A DNA stretch of 64,000 nucleotides from the NCBI GenBank assembly GCA_001801995.1, contig MGZB01000001.1, positions 248,001 to 312,000 on the forward strand, given 5' to 3'. This document shows positions 47,392-57,309 of the stretch, in pieces (the first letter of the stretch is position 1; every line of letters starts with the position of its first letter). The DNA comes from Gammaproteobacteria bacterium RIFOXYD12_FULL_61_37. Lineage in GTDB: Bacteria; Pseudomonadota; Gammaproteobacteria; Chromatiales; Chromatiaceae. The translations under genes were made by a program, and so were the position numbers. A model generated the notes under the pieces. The model did no database searches and was not told where the DNA came from. It saw only the letters and a program-made list of their open reading frames with translations.

Positions 47392-48324
47392 ATGTCCGCC
47401 TTGATTTGCGGTTCTTTCGCCTACGACACCATCATGGTCTTTCACGACCATTTCAAACACCACATCCTTCCGGAACAGGTGCATATCCTCAATGTCTCCT
47501 TCCTGGTTCCCGACCTGCGCCGTGAGTTCGGCGGCTGTGCCGGCAATATTGCCTACAACCTGAAACTGCTGGGCGGCGAAGGCAAACCCATGGGCACCGT
47601 CGGCTTCGATTTCGGCCCCTACGCCGAATGGATGGACCGGCAAGGCATCAGCCGGGATCATCTGAAAGTGATGGATGGCACCTACACCGCCCAGGCCTAT
47701 ATCACCACCGACCAGGACGATAACCAGATCACCGCCTTTCACCCCGGCGCCATGAATCACGCCCATGAAAACCGCGTCAGCGATGCGGCAGGCACCACAC
47801 TGGGACTGGTTTCCCCTGACGGACGCCAGGGGATGGTCGAACACGCGGAGCAGTTTGCCGAGGCGGGCATCTCCTTCATCTTTGATCCGGGTCAGGGCAT
47901 GCCCATGTTTAATGGCGATGACCTCAACCGCTTCGTCAAACAGGCATCCTATCTGGCCTTCAACGATTACGAGGCCAAACTGATGCAGGAGCGTACCGGC
48001 AAATCCCCCGAACAATTAGCGCGTGAAACAGAGGCGGTCATCGTCACCCGTGGCGGTGAGGGCTCCCTCATCTATGCCGCCGGCAAGGTCCATGAGATCC
48101 CTCCCGCCCCCGTCCGGTCCATCGAGGACCCCACGGGTTGCGGTGATGCCTACCGCGCCGGGCTGATCTATGGCTTGATGAACGGCATGGACTGGGAAAC
48201 TACTGGCCGCATCGCCGGCCTCATGGGCGCCGTCAAGATCGAGCAGGCCGGAACCCAGAACCACCGCTTTACCCTGGATGAGTTCAAGGGCCGCTTCAAA
48301 GAGGCCTATGGTTTCAATTTCTGA
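47392..48324 (+). CDS. PfkB-family carbohydrate/nucleoside kinase (adenosine kinase-like)
   Basis: 310-residue cytosolic kinase. It begins SALICGSFAYDTIMVFHDHF, close to bacterial adenosine kinase-like members. The substrate loop has REFGGCAGNIAYNLKLLGG. The catalytic motif is DPTGCGDAYRAGLIYGL, matching PfkB signature 2 (DTxGAGD) with Pro and Cys changes and the base Asp kept. Substrate not certain. GGAG lies before the ATG. The DNR-type regulator gene follows. Confidence 0.88.
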   Translation: MSALICGSFAYDTIMVFHDHFKHHILPEQVHILNVSFLVPDLRREFGGCAGNIAYNLKLLGGEGKPMGTVGFDFGPYAEWMDRQGISRDHLKVMDGTYTAQAYITTDQDDNQITAFHPGAMNHAHENRVSDAAGTTLGLVSPDGRQGMVEHAEQFAEAGISFIFDPGQGMPMFNGDDLNRFVKQASYLAFNDYEAKLMQERTGKSPEQLARETEAVIVTRGGEGSLIYAAGKVHEIPPAPVRSIEDPTGCGDAYRAGLIYGLMNGMDWETTGRIAGLMGAVKIEQAGTQNHRFTLDEFKGRFKEAYGFNF

Positions 48325-48345
48325 TTCAAAGTGAGCCGCATCCCC

Positions 48346-49065
48346 ATGGCCAATACGACAGATCTTCTGAAACAGCATCTGCTTTTCTGCAACCTCAGCG
48401 ATGAACAGATGGCCCAGGTTGGTCGGCACTCGCGTATCGTCAGCTATGCCAAGGGAAGCCATCTGTTCGAACAGGGTGATGCGGCAACCCACTTTTTTTA
48501 TCTAGTGGAAGGCCAAGTTAAGCTGTCTATATATTCGGCATCCGGTGATGAAAAGGTGATCGAGGTGATCAAGCCGGGCGGAACCTTCGCTGAATCCCTG
48601 ATGTTCCGCGATGCCCCGTACTACCCCGTAGCCTGCCAGATGCTGCTTGACTCGCGGCTGGTAAGCATTGAGTCCCGCGCCTTCAAGCTGCTCTTGCGTG
48701 AATCGGTGGATACCTGTCTTGCCATGCTGGCCGATCTAAGCAAGCGCCTGCACGGACTGGTTAGCGAGATCGACAACCTGAGCCTGCACAGCGCCCTATG
48801 CCGGGTTGCCAGTTACCTCTCGGCACAAGCCCCGGAACAGACCCTGGAGTTTGATCTCAACGTCCAAAAACAGGTACTGGCGTCCCGCCTGTCGGTCAAA
48901 CCTGAGACCTTCTCGCGCCTCATCAAGCAACTCTGCTCCGACGGACTGATCGAGCTGAACGGACCCAGGGTCAAGGTCCTTAACCCCAACGGGCTGCGGG
49001 CGCTTGCCAGAAGCTGTTCCCAGGACATGGAGAGTTTCACTGACTCCTTTTATCTATCCAGTTAA
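48346..49065 (+). CDS. Crp/Fnr-family regulator, DNR-like
   Basis: 239-residue transcription factor from ATG 48346 (GTG 48331 is an alternative). An N-terminal cNMP-type sensor domain (LVEGQVKLSIYSASGDEKVI) leads to a long dimer helix and a C-terminal helix-turn-helix; the recognition helix is SVKPETFSRLIKQL, with the Glu and Arg that read TTGAT in Fnr-type proteins. No N-terminal Cys cluster is present, so it is not an O2-sensing FNR; overall it reads like DNR, the NO-sensing heme regulator. Its 3' end overlaps mobB by 29 bases. It lies beside the nap cluster, which has a matching box. Confidence 0.88.
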   Translation: MANTTDLLKQHLLFCNLSDEQMAQVGRHSRIVSYAKGSHLFEQGDAATHFFYLVEGQVKLSIYSASGDEKVIEVIKPGGTFAESLMFRDAPYYPVACQMLLDSRLVSIESRAFKLLLRESVDTCLAMLADLSKRLHGLVSEIDNLSLHSALCRVASYLSAQAPEQTLEFDLNVQKQVLASRLSVKPETFSRLIKQLCSDGLIELNGPRVKVLNPNGLRALARSCSQDMESFTDSFYLSS

Positions 49066-49567
49066 GGATAAAGTCCCTGATCCCGAGGTGATCGTTCAGG
49101 TCCAAGAGGGGTATCTCCGGCTCCACCGGCAGGCTCCCATCCGTAGCCACAGCGATGATATGGGGGTCGGACGGAAACAGAAGCGGCTGTCCCGTATCGG
49201 GACGATGAAGTTCTATCTTCGGGAAGGCCTCGTGCCGGAATCCCTCGATCAGAACCAGATCCAGCACGGCCTGATCCAAGTGGGACAGCATTTCATCCAA
49301 TACGGGCTCGGCGGGCTCCGCCACTTCGGTCACCATGGCCCAACGATGGGCAGAGGCGATCAAAACCTGGCCCGCCCCCGCCTTGCGCAGTTCATAGCTA
49401 TCCTTGCCGGGAATGTCGATTTCGAAACGGTGGTGGGAGAGTTTGATCAAGCCTACCCGCACCCCCTGATCCGCCAACAAAGGCAGCAATTGCTTCAATA
49501 GGGTGGTCTTACCTACGCCACTGTATGCGGCAAAACCCAACACCGGTTTTTCAGCGTGCTTCAACAT
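49037..49567 (-). CDS. mobB: Molybdopterin-guanine dinucleotide biosynthesis protein MobB
   Basis: GTP-binding helper of MobA in making bis-MGD, the cofactor of NapA. It has 176 residues; ATG 49567 with AAGGGGAA upstream gives the N-terminus LGFAAYSGVGKTTLLKQLLP with a P-loop. The frame is open to 49756, but that part overlaps napC. LVLIEGFRHEAFPKIELHR is also conserved. It is the last gene after napC on the minus strand, and its end overlaps the convergent DNR-like gene. Confidence 0.93.
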   Translation of the reverse strand: MLKHAEKPVLGFAAYSGVGKTTLLKQLLPLLADQGVRVGLIKLSHHRFEIDIPGKDSYELRKAGAGQVLIASAHRWAMVTEVAEPAEPVLDEMLSHLDQAVLDLVLIEGFRHEAFPKIELHRPDTGQPLLFPSDPHIIAVATDGSLPVEPEIPLLDLNDHLGIRDFILNWIDKRSQ

Positions 49568-49659
49568 GACGTCATGTTCCCCTTCGGCTAGGACGCCATG
49601 CCCAGGCTGGACTGGCATCGAAGGCGAAATATGCGCCCCCGATGCCATTCGGACAAGGC

Positions 49660-50247
49660 TCACTTCGCCTCTGGGTTGGAGGATTTCAGCAGGGGGTTGT
49701 TTTCCACCGCCTCTTCCCATCCTGCGGGAAGGGAATGGGCGATTCCCTTGTGACAATCGATACAGGTCTGGCCTGCCTCGATCGCCTCTTCGTGGCGAGT
49801 GGCGCTACGCGACTCCTGCTTGGTGAAGTCCATGGAATCGAAGTTGTGGCAGTTACGGCACTCGCGAGAGTTGGATTTTTTCATCCGCTCCCACTCATTC
49901 GTTGCCAGTTCCAAGCGTTTTGCCTCGAACTTCTCCGGGGTATCGACGGTACCCAGCATCTTGTGCCAGAGCTCATTGCTGGCCTGGATCTTGCGGCCGA
50001 TCTTGTGAATCCAATCCTTCGGCACATGGCAATCAGGGCAGGTTGCCCGCACCCCGGTGCGGTTCGTGAAATGGACTGTCTCTTGCAGTTCCTTGTAGAC
50101 GTTCTTCTCCATTTCGTGGCAGGAAATACAGAACGTCTCTGTGTTGGTCAGTTCCAGGGTCCAGTTGAAACCGCCCCAGAGCATTACGCCGAGAACGACA
50201 CCAACAATCAGGGTTCCGGTGAAAATCTTGGAAAACATCTTGATCAC
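49660..50247 (-). CDS. napC: Tetraheme cytochrome c NapC
   Basis: Inner-membrane-anchored quinol dehydrogenase that feeds electrons to NapB-NapA. It has 195 residues with an N-terminal membrane anchor ([19 protein letters not shown]). Four CxxCH sites are present: CISCH, CPDCH, CRNCH and CIDCH. The start is GTG 50247; an ATG at 50238 is possible. It lies after napB across a pair of stable hairpins. NapG and NapH are also encoded, giving two possible quinol routes. Confidence 0.95.
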
Positions 50248-50286
50248 ACTCTAGTAATTGTAAAAATCAACCGTTCCAATCGGGTG

Positions 50287-50334
50287 GGTCCCTGAGAGAG
50301 AGCCCCTCAGGGACCGGCGCGCCCTGGGCGCGCC
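50287..50334 (-). other. Two tandem stable hairpins between napB and napC
   Basis: GGTCCCTGAG (50287-50296) pairs with CTCAGGGACC (50306-50315), and right after it GGCGCGCC pairs with GGCGCGCC across CTG (50316-50334). No T run follows, so in the operon mRNA they may protect or separate napB and napC segments. Confidence 0.6.
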
Positions 50335-50339
50335 CCGAT

Positions 50340-50756
50340 TCACAGGGAATTGTCGACCAGGGGCTGGGCGTCGACTTGCGGCGCATGGCATGTATCGCAG
50401 AACCAGCGGCGCATGGAGATGTCCTGCAACTTCTTGCCGTCCCGGTCAAGGAAGTGGCTGTCCCCCACCTTTGGCGCCTTTTCCTTTTCGTGGTTCTTTT
50501 CGCTATGGCACTTCATGCAGCTATTGTTTTTCAGTGTAATCGTCTCCTTTTCGATCCCATGGGGGATCAAGGGAGGCTGCTTTTTATGGAAGCGTTCGAA
50601 GCCACCCTCGGCCTTCAGCGGCTTCTTTTGCTCGAAAGACTTCTCCTCCTTGTCGATGGGGTTATCCCCCCTCAAGGTTTGAACATCGGCGTATACCGCA
50701 AATGCCAACATTGAAGCCATCCATCCCAAAACCAGTGCTCGAATCGTTTTTTTCAT
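50340..50756 (-). CDS. napB: Diheme cytochrome c NapB
   Basis: Periplasmic small subunit that passes electrons to NapA. It has 138 residues from ATG 50756 (GGAGGG upstream), signal peptide ending AFAVYAD. Two heme sites are CMKCH and CDTCH. The region before the first site (IPHGIEKETITLKNNSCMKC) is typical of NapB. It is 55 bases after napH and followed by paired hairpins and napC. Confidence 0.95.
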   Translation of the reverse strand: MKKTIRALVLGWMASMLAFAVYADVQTLRGDNPIDKEEKSFEQKKPLKAEGGFERFHKKQPPLIPHGIEKETITLKNNSCMKCHSEKNHEKEKAPKVGDSHFLDRDGKKLQDISMRRWFCDTCHAPQVDAQPLVDNSL

Positions 50757-50811
50757 GGTGCCCTCCACCAGGCTAATGAACTTGTGAAGCTTCCGCAATC
50801 GTACGCAACCC

Positions 50812-51708
50812 TCATGGCTGTTGCGTCGTACCCCTCAGGCTTTCCACCTTCTCTTCGTTGTTGAAACGCAAACCAAAATTGAAGACGTCCTTTGAGCAGA
50901 CATCGATACAGCGACCACAGTTTGTACATTCCCCGGCCAGGATCACCGGACCAACCCCCTTGCCGGCACCTTTCAGCGCCGGCTTGATGACTTGCGGTTC
51001 CGGGCAGACAGCAAAGCAATCCATGCAATCGTTGCAACTTGCCCTCTGATCGGCCCGAATACGCAGGGGACTCAACTGGCCTATCAGCCCGTAAAGCCCA
51101 CCCATAGGGCAGAGATGGCTGCACCACCCCCGCTTCGCCACCAGGAGATCGAACAGGAAGACCGCAAGGATCACCGCCCAAGCCAGCCCCATGCCGAAGA
51201 TGATGCCCCGCTGCACGATGGAAACGGGGTTGAACATCTCGAAGGCCAGGGTCCCTGTAACGGCTGACAGTACCACCACCATTCCCAGCATCCAGTAGCG
51301 CAGCCCCCTGGAAAAACGGGCACCACCCCGGATTCCCAACCGCTCCCTCGTCCAATAGGCGGCATCGGTGACCCAGTTCAGGGGACAGACCCAGGAACAA
51401 AAGACACGTCCACCAACCAGCAGATAGAAAAGAGAAACGATCAGAACCCCGATGAGGGCATCCACCGCAGGGGCCATGCCCGCCGCCAGCATTTGCAGGA
51501 ACAGGATGGGTTCCGTCATCGGCACCCTGTCCAGCAACAGGCTCGACGACAGATTGCCTTTGATGATCCAGACCCCGGCCAACGGTCCGAGCAGGAACAG
51601 CAGGAACACTGAAACCTGGCTCAGCCGCCGCAGGATCAGCCACTTGTAGGCGCCGAACCATCCCTTGGCTTGGACAGCCTCCTTGCCTACTTCGCTGTAA
51701 CTCGCCAT
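50812..51708 (-). CDS. napH: Ferredoxin-type membrane protein NapH
   Basis: Membrane Fe-S protein that with NapG takes electrons from quinol. It has 298 residues with four main membrane segments. Two CxxxCP sites (FCSWVCPL and WCSHLCPM) lie at membrane ends. The C-terminal 4Fe-4S pairs are CNDCMDCFAVCPEP and CTNCGRCIDVCSKD. The start at 51708 is set by an ATGA overlap with napG. Confidence 0.95.
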   Translation of the reverse strand: MASYSEVGKEAVQAKGWFGAYKWLILRRLSQVSVFLLFLLGPLAGVWIIKGNLSSSLLLDRVPMTEPILFLQMLAAGMAPAVDALIGVLIVSLFYLLVGGRVFCSWVCPLNWVTDAAYWTRERLGIRGGARFSRGLRYWMLGMVVVLSAVTGTLAFEMFNPVSIVQRGIIFGMGLAWAVILAVFLFDLLVAKRGWCSHLCPMGGLYGLIGQLSPLRIRADQRASCNDCMDCFAVCPEPQVIKPALKGAGKGVGPVILAGECTNCGRCIDVCSKDVFNFGLRFNNEEKVESLRGTTQQP

Positions 51709-52580
51709 CACCGGCCCTCCAGACCACGGTTAAGGACATCGGCCGGACCGGAGGGAGCGGGCGTTTCCGCCTTCTCCAAGATCAGGCCCTTGCCTCCGTG
51801 CTCATAGCGAACCCCTTCGGGCAGGTTATAGCGATGTTCCAGGTCCGGCGTTACCAGTGACTCTCCGGCCTTGGCCTTCTCCTCCCAACCCTTCCGGTAG
51901 TGGCTGGCCAGCTTGCCCTGAACCAGATGCTTGGGCAGAACCCGTATGGCCGCCTCCTCCAGAATGCAGCCCTCCTCGCACTTACCGCAGCCGGTGCAGT
52001 GCTCGGAGTGAACCACCGGCAGGAAACGGGCATGCTTGCCGGAACGGACGTTGTGCTCCTTTTCCAGCGTGATCGCCTTACCGCGAATCGGGCAAATGTT
52101 GAAGCAGACCTCGCAACGCAGACCCAGAAAGGCAATGCAGGTCTCCTGATCGGAGACCACCGCCAGCCCCATCCTGGCCTTGTTGATGTCGGTCAGCTCG
52201 TGGCTCAGGGCACCCGTAGGACAAACCGGTACGCAGGGAATGTCCTCGCACATCTCACAACCGGCCTGGCGGGCGAAAAAGTAAGGCGTACCCAAGGGAA
52301 CGCCGTCGCCCAGCCTGCCCAGATGAAGCATGTCGTAAGGGCACCCCCGAATACAGAGCCCACAGCGAGTACAGGCAGCGAGAAACTCCTCCTCCGGCAA
52401 GGCGCCCGGCGGTCTCAACGCTTGCGCGGGCAAAGCCCCCGCGCGCTGCGCGTAGACACCGATACCCAGACCCAGCAGACCAATCCCACAAGCGGTCCTG
52501 GCCATTTCGGCCAGAAACTGCCGGCGCGTCGCCTGACTGGTTCCTCCGGCTGGATTGTCGTCGCTCACCTTTGTTCCCAT
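51708..52580 (-). CDS. napG: Ferredoxin-type protein NapG
   Basis: Periplasmic Fe-S protein with four 4Fe-4S sites, acting with NapH. It has 290 residues from ATG 52580 (the frame is open to 52643). A Tat signal with RRQFLAEMART lies near residue 20. Clusters are CTRCGLCIRGCP, CEMCEDIPCVPVCP, CEVCFNICP and CTGCGKCEEGC. It lies between napA and napH and overlaps napH by four bases. Confidence 0.95.
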   Translation of the reverse strand: MGTKVSDDNPAGGTSQATRRQFLAEMARTACGIGLLGLGIGVYAQRAGALPAQALRPPGALPEEEFLAACTRCGLCIRGCPYDMLHLGRLGDGVPLGTPYFFARQAGCEMCEDIPCVPVCPTGALSHELTDINKARMGLAVVSDQETCIAFLGLRCEVCFNICPIRGKAITLEKEHNVRSGKHARFLPVVHSEHCTGCGKCEEGCILEEAAIRVLPKHLVQGKLASHYRKGWEEKAKAGESLVTPDLEHRYNLPEGVRYEHGGKGLILEKAETPAPSGPADVLNRGLEGR

Positions 52581-52673
52581 GACTGATACTGCCAATACCA
52601 ATGCCGCACTAAGGCCGGAATGTAGCGGCGGCCCCCACCCCAAAGGGAAAAGGCCACCGCCATCCCCCGACCG

Positions 52674-55292
52674 TTACGCCTTCACTACCTTGACCGCGCA
52701 CTTCTTGTAGTCGGTTTCCTTCGAGAGCGGGTCTGTCTGATCCAAGGTCACCTTGTTGATCAGGCGGCTTTCGTCAAACCATGGCACAAACACCAAACCT
52801 TCCGGAGGCCGGTTGCGTCCGCGGGTATCGACACGGGTAATGATCTCGCCACGACGAGAGATCACCTTCACTTCCGAGCCGTCACGCAGATTGCGTTTCT
52901 TGGCATCCTTCGGGTTCATGTAGACAACGGCGTCCGGCATGGCCCGATGGAGTTCCGGCACACGCCGGGTCATGGAGCCGGAATGCCAGTGCTCAAGTAC
53001 GCGCCCGGTGCAAAGCCAGAGGTCGAACTCAGCATCCGGGGCCTCGGCCGGCGGCTCGTAGGGGCCAAAGATGATATTGGCCTTGCCATCCTTCTGGCCG
53101 TAGAAGTTCACCGCGCCCTTGGCCACCGTATCCGATACTTTGACATGGGGGTCATAGCCTTCGCGGAAACGCCACAGGGTCTCCTTGCCGTCGATTACCG
53201 GCCACCGCAGGCCACGCACCTTGTGATAGGTATCGAACTCGGCCATCTCGTGGCCCTTCTTCGGCATACCCTCGGCGGTATTGAACATCCGGTACTCTTC
53301 GAACAGCCCCTTCTGGACGTAATAGCCGAAGTGGTCCATCTCATCGTTGCCGTAATTGTTGCCGCGGTCGTCGGTCACCTGCTGTTTCGGGAACTTGTTG
53401 ACCTGGCCGTTTTCGTACAGCACTTCGTATAGGGTCTTGCCCTTATACTCCGGCATCTTCGCCAGTTGCTCCTCGGGCCAGACCTCTTCGGTCTTGAAAC
53501 GCTTGGCGAACTCCATCACCTGCCACATGTCGGATCGGGATTCGCCCGGCGCCTTCACTTGCTGGCGCCAGAACTGGGTGCGGCGCTCGGCGTTGCCGTA
53601 GGCGCCTTCCTTCTCGATCCACATGGCGGTGGGCAGTACCAGATCGGCGGCAATGGTGGAGACCGTCGGATAGGGATCGGAGACGGTGACAAAGACATCC
53701 GGGTTACGCCAGCCGGGGAAGGACTCCTGGTTCGTGTTGGCGGCGGCCTGCATGTTGTTGTTGCACTGCTGCCAGTAACAGTTCAACTTGCCGTCCTTCA
53801 TCATGCGATGCATGAGCACGGCGTGGAACCCAACCTTGCCGTTGATGGTTCCCTCGGGCAGCTTCCAGATCTTCTCTGCGTAGGCACGATGATCCTTGTT
53901 CATGACCACATGGTCCGCCGGCAGACGGTGGGCGAAGGTACCCACCTCGCGGGCCGTGCCGCAGGCGGAGGGTTGACCGGTCAGGGAAAAGGGGCTGTTG
54001 CCGGGCTCGGAGATCTTGCCCATCAGCAGGTGGATGTTGTAGACGTTGCCGTTCTGCCAGACCCCGCGGGTATGCTGGTTCATGCCCATGGTCCAGAAGG
54101 AGGAGACCTTCTTGCTGGGGTCCGCGTAGACCTTGGCCAGTCTCAGCAACTGATCCTGGGGCACACCGGACATTTCGCTGGCCTTTTCCACCGTGTACTC
54201 GGCGACAGCCGCCGCATACTCCTCGAAGGTCATGGGGTCCATCTTGTTGGGATCGCCCTTGTTCTTCTCGGGATCGGCTGGGTCGTTGGCGGAATAACCG
54301 TTGTTGGCCGCCGCCACCTCCAGGGGGTGCTTAGGACGCAGGCCGTAACCGATATTGGTCACCGCACGCTTGAAGTTGACCTTGTTGGCAACGAAGTCCT
54401 GGTTATAGGCCTTGTTCTGGATGATGTAGTTGGCGATGAAATTGGCGATCGCCAAATCGGACTGCGGCTTGAATACCATGCTGTTGTCGGATAGTTCGAA
54501 GCAGCGGTGCTCGTAGGTGGAGAGCACATGCACCTCGCTACCCGCCTTGGTCAGACGAGTATCAGTCAGGCGAGACCAGAGGATGGGGTGCATTTCCGCC
54601 ATGTTGGCGCCCCAGAGGACAAAGACATCGGCGTGCTCCAGGTCGTCATAGCAGCCCATGGGCTCGTCGATGCCGAAGCCGCGCATGAAGGCGACCACTG
54701 CCGACGCCATACAGTGGCGGGCGTTGGGGTCGAGGTTGTTGGAACGCAGACCGGCCTTCATGAACTTGGAGGCGGCATAGCCCTCCCAAATGGTCCATTG
54801 GCCGGAGCCGAACATGCCGACCCGTGAGGTGAGTTTGTCGACAGGCTTGCCCTTGTTTTCCTCCATGCTCTTGGCAATGGCTGCCTTCCACTTTTCCGCC
54901 ATCACATTGAAGGCCTCGTCCCAGGAGACTTCCTCGAACTTGCCGTTCTTGTCGAATTTACCGTCGGTCTTGCGCAGCAGCGGTTTGGTCAGACGGTCCT
55001 TGCCGTAAAGGATCTTAGGCAGGAAGTAGCCCTTGATGCAGTTCAGGCCACGGTTGACCGGGGCATCCGGGTCGCCTTGGGAAGCCACCACCTTGCCGTC
55101 CTTGACGCCCATGAGAACACTGCATCCCGTACCGCAATAGCGGCAGGCTGCCTTGTCCCAACGGACATCCATGTACTCATCCTTCTCCTCTGCCGCCAGC
55201 GCCTCCTTAACCCCCGGGATGGTAACCCCGGCGATGGCGGCGGTCGCCGCTATGGCGTTGGTTTTGATAAAGTCCCGTCGTGTTTGTTTCAT
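52674..55292 (-). CDS. napA: Periplasmic nitrate reductase catalytic subunit NapA
   Basis: Bis-MGD molybdoenzyme that reduces nitrate to nitrite in the periplasm. It has 872 residues from ATG 55292 (GAGAGG upstream), somewhat longer than the usual 830, with an extra polar loop around residues 310-345 ([18 protein letters not shown]). The Tat signal is [13 protein letters not shown]. The 4Fe-4S cluster is C50, C53, C57 and C85; the Mo ligand is Cys194 in [10 protein letters not shown]. napD lies 16 bases upstream; NapD binds this Tat signal. Confidence 0.97.
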
Positions 55293-55308
55293 GACCAGGT
55301 TTCCTCTC

Positions 55309-55554
55309 TTATATTGCCTCGTTGTCATCTTCGCGATGGTGATAAATCAGCGATGCCGACAGCACGCCCTCCAGCGTCTGTATCGCCATCATGGACTCCG
55401 CCATTCGATCCTCGTCGTCCTCCTCCAAGGTGACCACCGCACGCCCCTCTTCACTGACGCCATGGACTTCCACTCCGGAAATGGCCAGGAGCCGTTCGCG
55501 AACGGCGCCAAAACCCTCAGGGTGCGCATGGACCAGAATTCCACAAATATTCAT
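55309..55554 (-). CDS. napD: NapA-signal-peptide chaperone NapD
   Basis: Cytoplasmic 81-residue chaperone that binds the Tat signal of NapA until cofactor is loaded. N-terminus [20 protein letters not shown] and the VVTLEEDD segment fit the family. It overlaps napF by ATGA and precedes napA by 16 bases. The C-terminus is His- and Asp-rich ([11 protein letters not shown]). Confidence 0.93.
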
Positions 55555-56111
55555 TCAGCCCTCTCATTATTGGTTGACCAACCCATCCCTCGGGTGGCGT
55601 GGACAGGCTCACCGCCGCTGGGTGCCCTGATCTTCACAGCGCCCACCGGGCAGATCGAAAGGCAGGCGCCACACCCGGTGCAGGCCTCCATGAGGATGTT
55701 GACCTCGGCACGACCGCCGGTTTGCAGCCGGAACCTAATAGCACGGGCGCCGCACGCATCGCCGCAAGCACGGCATGTGATCCCTCGCCCGGCAAGACAG
55801 CTCCCATCGACCCTTGCCTTGACCGGCCATGCAGGCTCCTGGGATCGCATCAATGCCCCAGGCTTGCAGACATCGGCGCACAGGCCGCAAAAACTGCATC
55901 CCCCCCGCTTGAAATCGACGGCGGGGAAGCCTCCATCACCGCGTACGAGTATCCCCTCGCCGCAACCCTCGATGCAGGCATTGCAGCGGGTACAGAGAGC
56001 GCTAAACTTTGCAGGCAAAGCCCAGGGGGGACGGATCGGCTCTTCCGCGTGAGCCCCGATACGTCCCCTCAAAAGGTTCCTCCGGCTATGATCGACTGCT
56101 GCTGACTGCAT
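55551..56111 (-). CDS. napF: Ferredoxin-type protein NapF
   Basis: Cytoplasmic Fe-S protein thought to help mature NapA. It has 186 residues from ATG 56111; the frame is open to 56258 but that would reach moaA. The N-terminus holds DHSRRNLLRGR, and the clusters are CTRCNACIEGCGEG, CSFCGLCADVCKPG and CTGCGACLSICPVG, plus a CRACGDACGA site. It is the first gene of napFDAGHBC-mobB. An FNR/DNR box lies 61 bases upstream. Confidence 0.93.
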   Translation of the reverse strand: MQSAAVDHSRRNLLRGRIGAHAEEPIRPPWALPAKFSALCTRCNACIEGCGEGILVRGDGGFPAVDFKRGGCSFCGLCADVCKPGALMRSQEPAWPVKARVDGSCLAGRGITCRACGDACGARAIRFRLQTGGRAEVNILMEACTGCGACLSICPVGAVKIRAPSGGEPVHATRGMGWSTNNERAE

Positions 56112-56143
56112 GGTTCCTGGGGTGTAATGCCTAACTGGTCGCC

Positions 56144-56149
56144 AATACA
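56144..56149 (-). promoter_or_regulatory. Possible -10 element of the nap promoter
   Basis: On the minus strand TGTATT lies 22 bases after the FNR/DNR box, as expected for an activator centred near -41.5. It matches TATAAT at four of six positions. Confidence 0.4.
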
Positions 56150-56171
56150 CACCTGTTACGGGGTCAATAAC

Positions 56172-56185
56172 TTGACGATTATCAA
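56172..56185. promoter_or_regulatory. FNR/DNR-type operator between napF and moaA
   Basis: TTGACGATTATCAA fits TTGAT-N4-ATCAA at nine of ten positions, and its arms extend to the perfect palindrome ACTTGA-N6-TCAAGT (56170-56187). Geometry fits class II activation of napF. GGGTCAA (56161-56167) and TTGACCC (56211-56217) form a second inverted pair around it. Confidence 0.75.
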
Positions 56186-56245
56186 GTCGGTTTCTGGAGT
56201 AGGGCGTAGGTTGACCCAGGTCATAACAAATAGGCAGTGAATCCC

Positions 56246-57217
56246 ATGAGAGACTCATTCGGCCGAGAGATCAGCTACCTGCGGTTGTCGGTGACGGATC
56301 GTTGCGACTTCCGCTGCTTCTATTGTCTGCCGCGCGATTACCGTGGTTTCGCTACGCCAGAGCACTGGCTGAGCCCCTCAGAGATAAAGTGCTTGATCAG
56401 TGTCTTTGCCGGCTTGGGTATTCGCCATGTGCGACTCACGGGTGGCGAGCCCCTGGTCCGGAAGGAGTTGCTTGAGATAACCCAGCGCATAGGAGAAGTA
56501 GCCGGCATCGAGGAGATCTCGCTCAGCACCAATGCCTCTCGGTTGCGGCAACAGGCCAGCGAGCTGCGCAAGATGGGAGTGTCGCGACTCAATATCAGCC
56601 TCGATTCATTGGACCCCTCGACCTTCGAGAAGATCACGGGCGGCAATCTGAGCAAGGTCCTCAACGGCATTCAGGCTGCCGTTGATGTGGGATTCCACCC
56701 GCTCAAGCTCAATATGGTGGTCATGAGGGGGATCAATGATCATGAAGTCGAGAAGATGGTCGACTTCTGCATGGATCAGGGGCTGACGTTGCGTTTCATC
56801 GAAACCATGCCCGTCGGACGGAACGGAATCGAGGCCAACCGCCACTTCATCCCGCTCAGGGAAATAGAGACGCGCCTGCGCCAGCGCTATTCCTTGCAGC
56901 CAGCCGCCATGCGCGGTTCTGGCCCGGCCCGTTACTTCCAGGTAGGCGGGACCGGTTTGGTTATTGGGTTCATCACACCGCAATCCCAGCACTTCTGCGA
57001 CACCTGCAACAGGGTGCGCCTCTCCGTGGAAGGGGACCTGCACCTCTGTCTCGGCAAGGAGAACCGGATCTCCCTGCGGGATATGCTGAGAGAGGGTGCC
57101 TCCGGCGACGCCATCGCCGAGGCCATCATCGCCGGCGTTCGACTGAAACCGGAGCGCCACAGCTTCGACCAGCCGGAGACCCACGTCCTTCGGCCCATGT
57201 CCGCCTTGGGCGGATAG
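56246..57217 (+). CDS. moaA: GTP 3',8-cyclase MoaA
   Basis: Radical SAM enzyme, first step of molybdopterin synthesis. It has 323 residues from ATG 56246 (GTG 56237 is an alternative). The N-terminal 4Fe-4S site is Cys20, Cys24 and Cys27 in DRCDFRCFYC. The second cluster near the C-terminus is FCDTCNRVRLSVEGDLHLC. The chain ends SALGG, with the C-terminal Gly-Gly that MoaA needs. Divergent from napF across the FNR/DNR box, so both sides may be induced together. Confidence 0.95.
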   Translation: MRDSFGREISYLRLSVTDRCDFRCFYCLPRDYRGFATPEHWLSPSEIKCLISVFAGLGIRHVRLTGGEPLVRKELLEITQRIGEVAGIEEISLSTNASRLRQQASELRKMGVSRLNISLDSLDPSTFEKITGGNLSKVLNGIQAAVDVGFHPLKLNMVVMRGINDHEVEKMVDFCMDQGLTLRFIETMPVGRNGIEANRHFIPLREIETRLRQRYSLQPAAMRGSGPARYFQVGGTGLVIGFITPQSQHFCDTCNRVRLSVEGDLHLCLGKENRISLRDMLREGASGDAIAEAIIAGVRLKPERHSFDQPETHVLRPMSALGG

Positions 57218-57309
57218 GATTCCAGCTGGAGACCGGAGACCTGGGGTAATGCCAATTTCTATCCGGCATGCTTAAATCAGCCTCACGGCTTCCAACTCCG
57301 AAGAAAGGC

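Follow-up and report, generated by a model that had tools for sequence, protein, structure and literature searches.

A conserved FNR/DNR-type palindrome upstream of napFDAGHBC in a bacterium of the Chromatiaceae, and its probable activator

Introduction

Which protein turns on periplasmic nitrate reduction is the question raised by a palindrome that lies between divergent napF and moaA in Gammaproteobacteria bacterium RIFOXYD12_FULL_61_37. The DNA analysed here, referred to as the window, is a 64,000-nucleotide stretch of contig MGZB01000001.1. A regulator gene of the Crp/Fnr family stands at the far end of the nap cluster, and a first, sequence-only reading had proposed that nitrate reduction responds to NO or low oxygen through this linked regulator, which it regarded as unusual for nap. 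That last point is not supported, given that FNR- or DNR-type control of nap has been published and that the box proved to be common to the window's family.

In Escherichia coli, FNR activates napF and moaABCDE, and for several gamma-proteobacteria FNR sites have been predicted at both nap and moa, according to reviews and comparative papers (PMC1805755, PMC10845959). In Dinoroseobacter shibae, nap carries a TTGAT-N4-ATCAA site, FnrL induces the genes, and Dnr proteins also act on them (PMC5398030). The DNR box has been described as indistinguishable from the ANR/FNR box (PMC5398030) or as very similar to it (PMC1274295). The beta-proteobacterial DNR motif is CTTGATnnnnATCAAG, and dnr genes occur in denitrifiers (Rodionov 2005, PMC1274295). 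FNR-type control of denitrification genes has also been published for the Rhodocyclaceae, including Accumulibacter.

Results

The palindrome and its occurrence in the genome

The features of the locus are listed in Table 1. Reading of the sequence confirmed the 18-mer ACTTGACGATTATCAAGT where the sequence-only reading had placed it, flanked divergently by napF (TIGR00402) and moaA (TIGR02666), as had also been proposed. Both of its 6-bp arms are perfect, and 9 of the 10 core positions of TTGATN4ATCAA are matched, one half being TTGAC.

Table 1. Features of the nap locus in the window
Feature	Position	Strand	Basis or remark
PfkB-family kinase	47392..48324	+	PF00294; just upstream of the regulator
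DNR-clade Crp/Fnr-family regulator	48346..49065	+	cNMP-binding domain and HTH_Crp_2; HTH motif PETFSR
mobB	49037..49618	-	TIGR00176 above cut-off; start uncertain
napC	49660..50247	-	PF03264
napB	50340..50798	-	PF03892; start uncertain
napH	50812..51711	-	NF007013 above cut-off
napG	51708..52643	-	NF007012 above cut-off; start uncertain
napA, catalytic subunit	52674..55328	-	ORF, PF00384, between napD and napG; inner ATG possible
napD	55309..55554	-	PF03927
napF	55551..56108	-	TIGR00402 above cut-off; first gene of napFDAGHBC; start from homology and box distance
Candidate napF -10 hexamer TGTATT	56144..56149	-	22 bp from the 14-mer core
FNR/DNR-type palindrome ACTTGACGATTATCAAGT	56170..56187	none	core TTGAC-N4-ATCAA at 56172-56185
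moaA	56249..57217	+	TIGR02666 above cut-off; divergent from napF
mog, moeA, moaD-like, after moaA	57268..59323	+	ORFs, matched in order in relatives

Taken alone, the palindrome is weak evidence for a regulatory site, because TTGAN6TCAA was not enriched in the 64-kb window (2 occurrences against 0.77 expected, not significant) and because the same stretch contains 23 inverted repeats of this size (6-bp arms, 6-bp gap). Both counts would fit an inverted repeat that arose by chance, and the case for a site thus rests on genome-wide enrichment and on conservation upstream of napF. A motif search of the genome, which the sequence-only reading had suggested as a check, found TTGAYNNNNRTCAA (TTGAYN4RTCAA) in 34 places, compared with 2 for the same pattern read backwards. 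The exact pattern ACTTGA-N6-TCAAGT was found at a single place in the 3.47-Mb genome, and its reversed control at none.

Genome contexts were read as stretches around the matches; norB, norC and nirS were identified from translations by eye, and the other target genes by NCBIfam matches. Sites were located at known targets of FNR/DNR-type control: in the gap that separates norC from a second DNR-like gene, near a nirS-like gene, before fnr, between ccoP and ccoG, and before nrdD. Elsewhere (L041, 2501-2748), two divergent genes are separated by a region with three TTGAYN4RTCAA sites inside 250 bp, and one of these genes encodes a cytochrome of the octahaem tetrathionate-reductase family. Several of the 34 sites fall inside genes and are probably chance occurrences. 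When the spacing to a -10 hexamer was profiled for the full set of 34, no peak appeared, since the direction of the target is clear for a minority of sites and some sites are intragenic.

Conservation and promoter geometry upstream of napF

The 300-bp regions upstream of napF were compared in 24 relatives from the same family and class; a box was counted at 9 or more of 10 core matches, and the expectation came from random sequences generated with a first-order Markov model at matched composition. The box was present in 19 of the 24 regions (0.3 expected) and was not found in the other five, one of which offered just 109 bp. The congener keeps the site as ACTTGATGAATATCAAGT.

Class II FNR promoters have a site centred at about -41.5. 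Among the 19 relatives with a box, the mean match to TATAAT in the direction of napF peaked at 3.37 of 6 where the hexamer lay exactly 22 bp beyond the box, compared with about 1.0 to 2.3 of 6 at the other spacings tested (10 to 39). In the window, the hexamer at that distance is TGTATT, with 4 of 6 matches, and the congener has the same hexamer. The 22-bp spacing is, judging from the sequence, class II geometry facing napF, with the centre predicted at about -41.5, and the hexamer and the peak across relatives bear out the class II spacing that had been suggested earlier for a nap -10 box.

Conservation, the spacing peak and the genome-wide enrichment of TTGAYN4RTCAA all contradict an origin by chance, which we regard as extremely improbable. 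By sequence comparison, the palindrome is a genuine, conserved FNR/DNR-type site.

The moaA side of the box

The sequence-only reading had assigned the box to both nap and molybdenum cofactor (Moco) genes. The nap half of this claim stood, with a -10 hexamer in place, whereas in the direction of moaA the hexamer at class II spacing is AGGTTG in the window, which agrees with a -10 box at 0 of 6 positions, and TAGCTT in the congener. A bidirectional switch, in which the box would govern napF and moaA together and raise the Moco supply along with the enzyme, is accordingly a tentative proposal, to which we give clearly less credence than to its opposite. It draws on the short, divergent napF-moaA intergenic region and on the FNR control of moaABCDE known in E. 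coli and predicted in several gamma-proteobacteria. In addition, a second, imperfect palindrome, TTGACCCAGGTCAT (TTGACCCA(G/A)GTCAT), lies at 56211-56224, nearer the start of moaA, and both elements are kept in the congener. The genome contains two moaA genes, the other copy being on contig C56, so that the copy beside nap could be the induced one. Against the switch, besides the hexamers, stands the fact that divergent moaA was seen in no relative examined outside the window's genus.

The regulator linked to nap

The genome encodes three candidate regulators, namely Fnr, a DNR-like protein linked to norCB, and the regulator linked to nap. As the sequence-only reading had noted, the last of these lacks the N-terminal FNR cysteine cluster (sequence and alignment) and resembles DNR, its best solved relative being Pseudomonas aeruginosa DNR (3dkw, E 7.5e-42). 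A small tree, built on few references, placed it in a clade with that protein (support 0.97), as sister (0.90) to a family-wide clade whose genes adjoin norCB in L104, L105, L106, L107, L109 and L128. It is 48% identical to the norCB-linked paralogue of its own genome. Some marginal PADLOC matches to the regulator were set aside as irrelevant.

In P. aeruginosa DNR, His139 is haem-linked, and His14, His15 and His187 are further haem-linked histidines. The window protein has the same recognition motif as P. aeruginosa DNR, PETFSR, and keeps the histidines aligned with His14 and His139, but it differs in having Leu at His15 and Arg at His187, and in its genomic context. A literature search on DNR His187 gave no match. 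At the His139 position the norCB-linked paralogue has Arg, and most relatives in the family likewise have no His there.

The regulator and its synteny are kept in the congener (88% identity). A scan of named genomes of close relatives returned one contig, that of the congener, and the gene was found in these two genomes only. Its 3' end overlaps that of the convergent mobB by 29 bp (49037-49065), the two being about 400 bp apart in the congener. The congener also has a long inverted repeat upstream of the kinase (L071, 8900-8960) that is absent from the window.

DNR-like genes within 10 kb of nap were found in G000/G001 (G001 being the congener), G032, G039, G053 and G060, that is, in five genera among 30 lineages, compared with 0.33 expected (Poisson P about 2e-5), a figure that is overstated because the G032 and G039 regulators are close to each other and the counting was done post hoc. 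In G032 and G039 a Crp/Fnr-family regulator heads napDAGHBC in the place of napF (L209, 6642-13438; L210, 5537-12216); these regulators belong to another branch, and no FNR box was found near them. In G060, a DNR-like and an Fnr-like gene adjoin a moaD-moeA-mog-moaA-napF cluster. A nap-linked regulator of the Crp/Fnr superfamily is a recurring arrangement.

Candidate activators of nap

The genome's own Fnr (contig C46) carries CKNCSLGSLC and an internal VCEL, which together supply the four cysteines for a 4Fe-4S cluster, and is 46% identical to E. coli Fnr. Fnr homologues were present at E <= 1e-40 in every genome carrying the nap box. The box itself occurred family-wide, with or without a DNR-like gene near nap, and was present in G038 (94% complete) and G006 (69% complete), neither of which gave a DNR-like match; in G006 the missing DNR may be an assembly gap. 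Because the box is family-wide and includes genomes without a DNR-like match, its distribution points to Fnr as the ancestral activator. Since FNR and DNR sites are inseparable by sequence, it is this distribution that names Fnr, and DNR-type proteins may share the box, as FNR, ANR and DNR boxes have been published as indistinguishable or very similar.

The nap-linked regulator might instead be the genus's dedicated nap activator, using the box to respond to NO or related signals, with a minor role for Fnr or none. Its place in the DNR clade, the PETFSR motif, the histidine that its norCB-linked paralogue has replaced by Arg, the synteny kept in the congener, the number of genera with DNR-like genes near nap and the replacement of napF by such a regulator at the head of the operon in G032 and G039 all speak for this reading. 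We nevertheless consider it unlikely: the nap box is spread far beyond the regulator, which was itself found in the window's genus only; its gene runs convergently to mobB-nap and lies behind a kinase, upstream of which no box was found; Arg stands at the His187 position; and the other nap-linked regulators are of other branches, with nap operons that mostly have no box, in a linkage counted after the pattern was seen. The nap-linked regulator is probably not the main user of the nap site, and a special NO switch linked to nap, though conceivable, is not the favoured reading. As a site for an FNR-type dimer that activates napFDAGHBC, with the genome's own Fnr most likely the main activator, the palindrome finds a reading that we hold to be probable.

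History of the locus

Seven other genera have mog immediately after the kinase, and moeA next where the fetched stretch reaches, whereas in the window (47392-57268) kinase and mog are separated by the regulator, mobB, nap and moaA. The comparison suggests that in an ancestor of the genus the whole block, regulator to moaA, came to lie at this position; the direction of the change is deduced. Kinase and regulator were also considered as a conserved pair, which was rejected, as the kinase is widespread without the regulator.

The nap genes differ in their divergence from the congener. NapG, NapH and NapD are 88 to 90% identical between the two genomes and NapA 74%; the congener's NapA is 84% identical to that of another genus (G007). 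The operon looks like a mosaic in which napA of the window, perhaps with napB, napC, mobB and napF, has been replaced or is changing fast.

Discussion

The sequence shows the site, how widely the family conserves it, its spacing and the three candidate regulators, and from these we infer binding, the direction of the effect and the acting protein. An FNR-type dimer, most likely the genome's oxygen-sensing Fnr, would bind the palindrome at about -41.5 and recruit RNA polymerase to the weak -10 box, switching the periplasmic nitrate reductase on as oxygen runs low. The norCB-linked or nap-linked DNR-type proteins can probably recognise this box as well and may contribute an NO signal, and moaA may profit from the nap site too. 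Control of nap here would be ordinary low-oxygen activation of the Fnr type.

The FNR-activated napF promoters of gamma-proteobacteria likewise have an FNR-type site upstream of napFDAGHBC, with Moco genes in the FNR regulon; the window differs in the class II spacing of its site and in the divergent moaA. In D. shibae a TTGAT-N4-ATCAA-type site also lies upstream of nap, but it precedes napD inside the napF transcript, and the Dnr proteins repress nap (PMC5398030). The beta-proteobacterial DNR regulon has nir, nor and nos as its core (PMC1274295), whereas the window regulator adjoins nap; the norCB-linked paralogue fits the published regulon better (PMC1274295).

These results assign the family's periplasmic nitrate reductase to an FNR-type regulon, with a promoter whose architecture is well defined, and a neighbouring regulator gene should not be assumed to be the acting one. 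It seems rather improbable that a DNR-type regulator dedicated to nap and Moco genes was recruited into the nap locus here and separately in several other lineages. If true, NO or another N-oxide would join oxygen as a signal that gates the first step of nitrate reduction, and DNR-like genes beside nap, if confirmed in more genomes, would offer a testable route by which N-oxides control the first step of denitrification.
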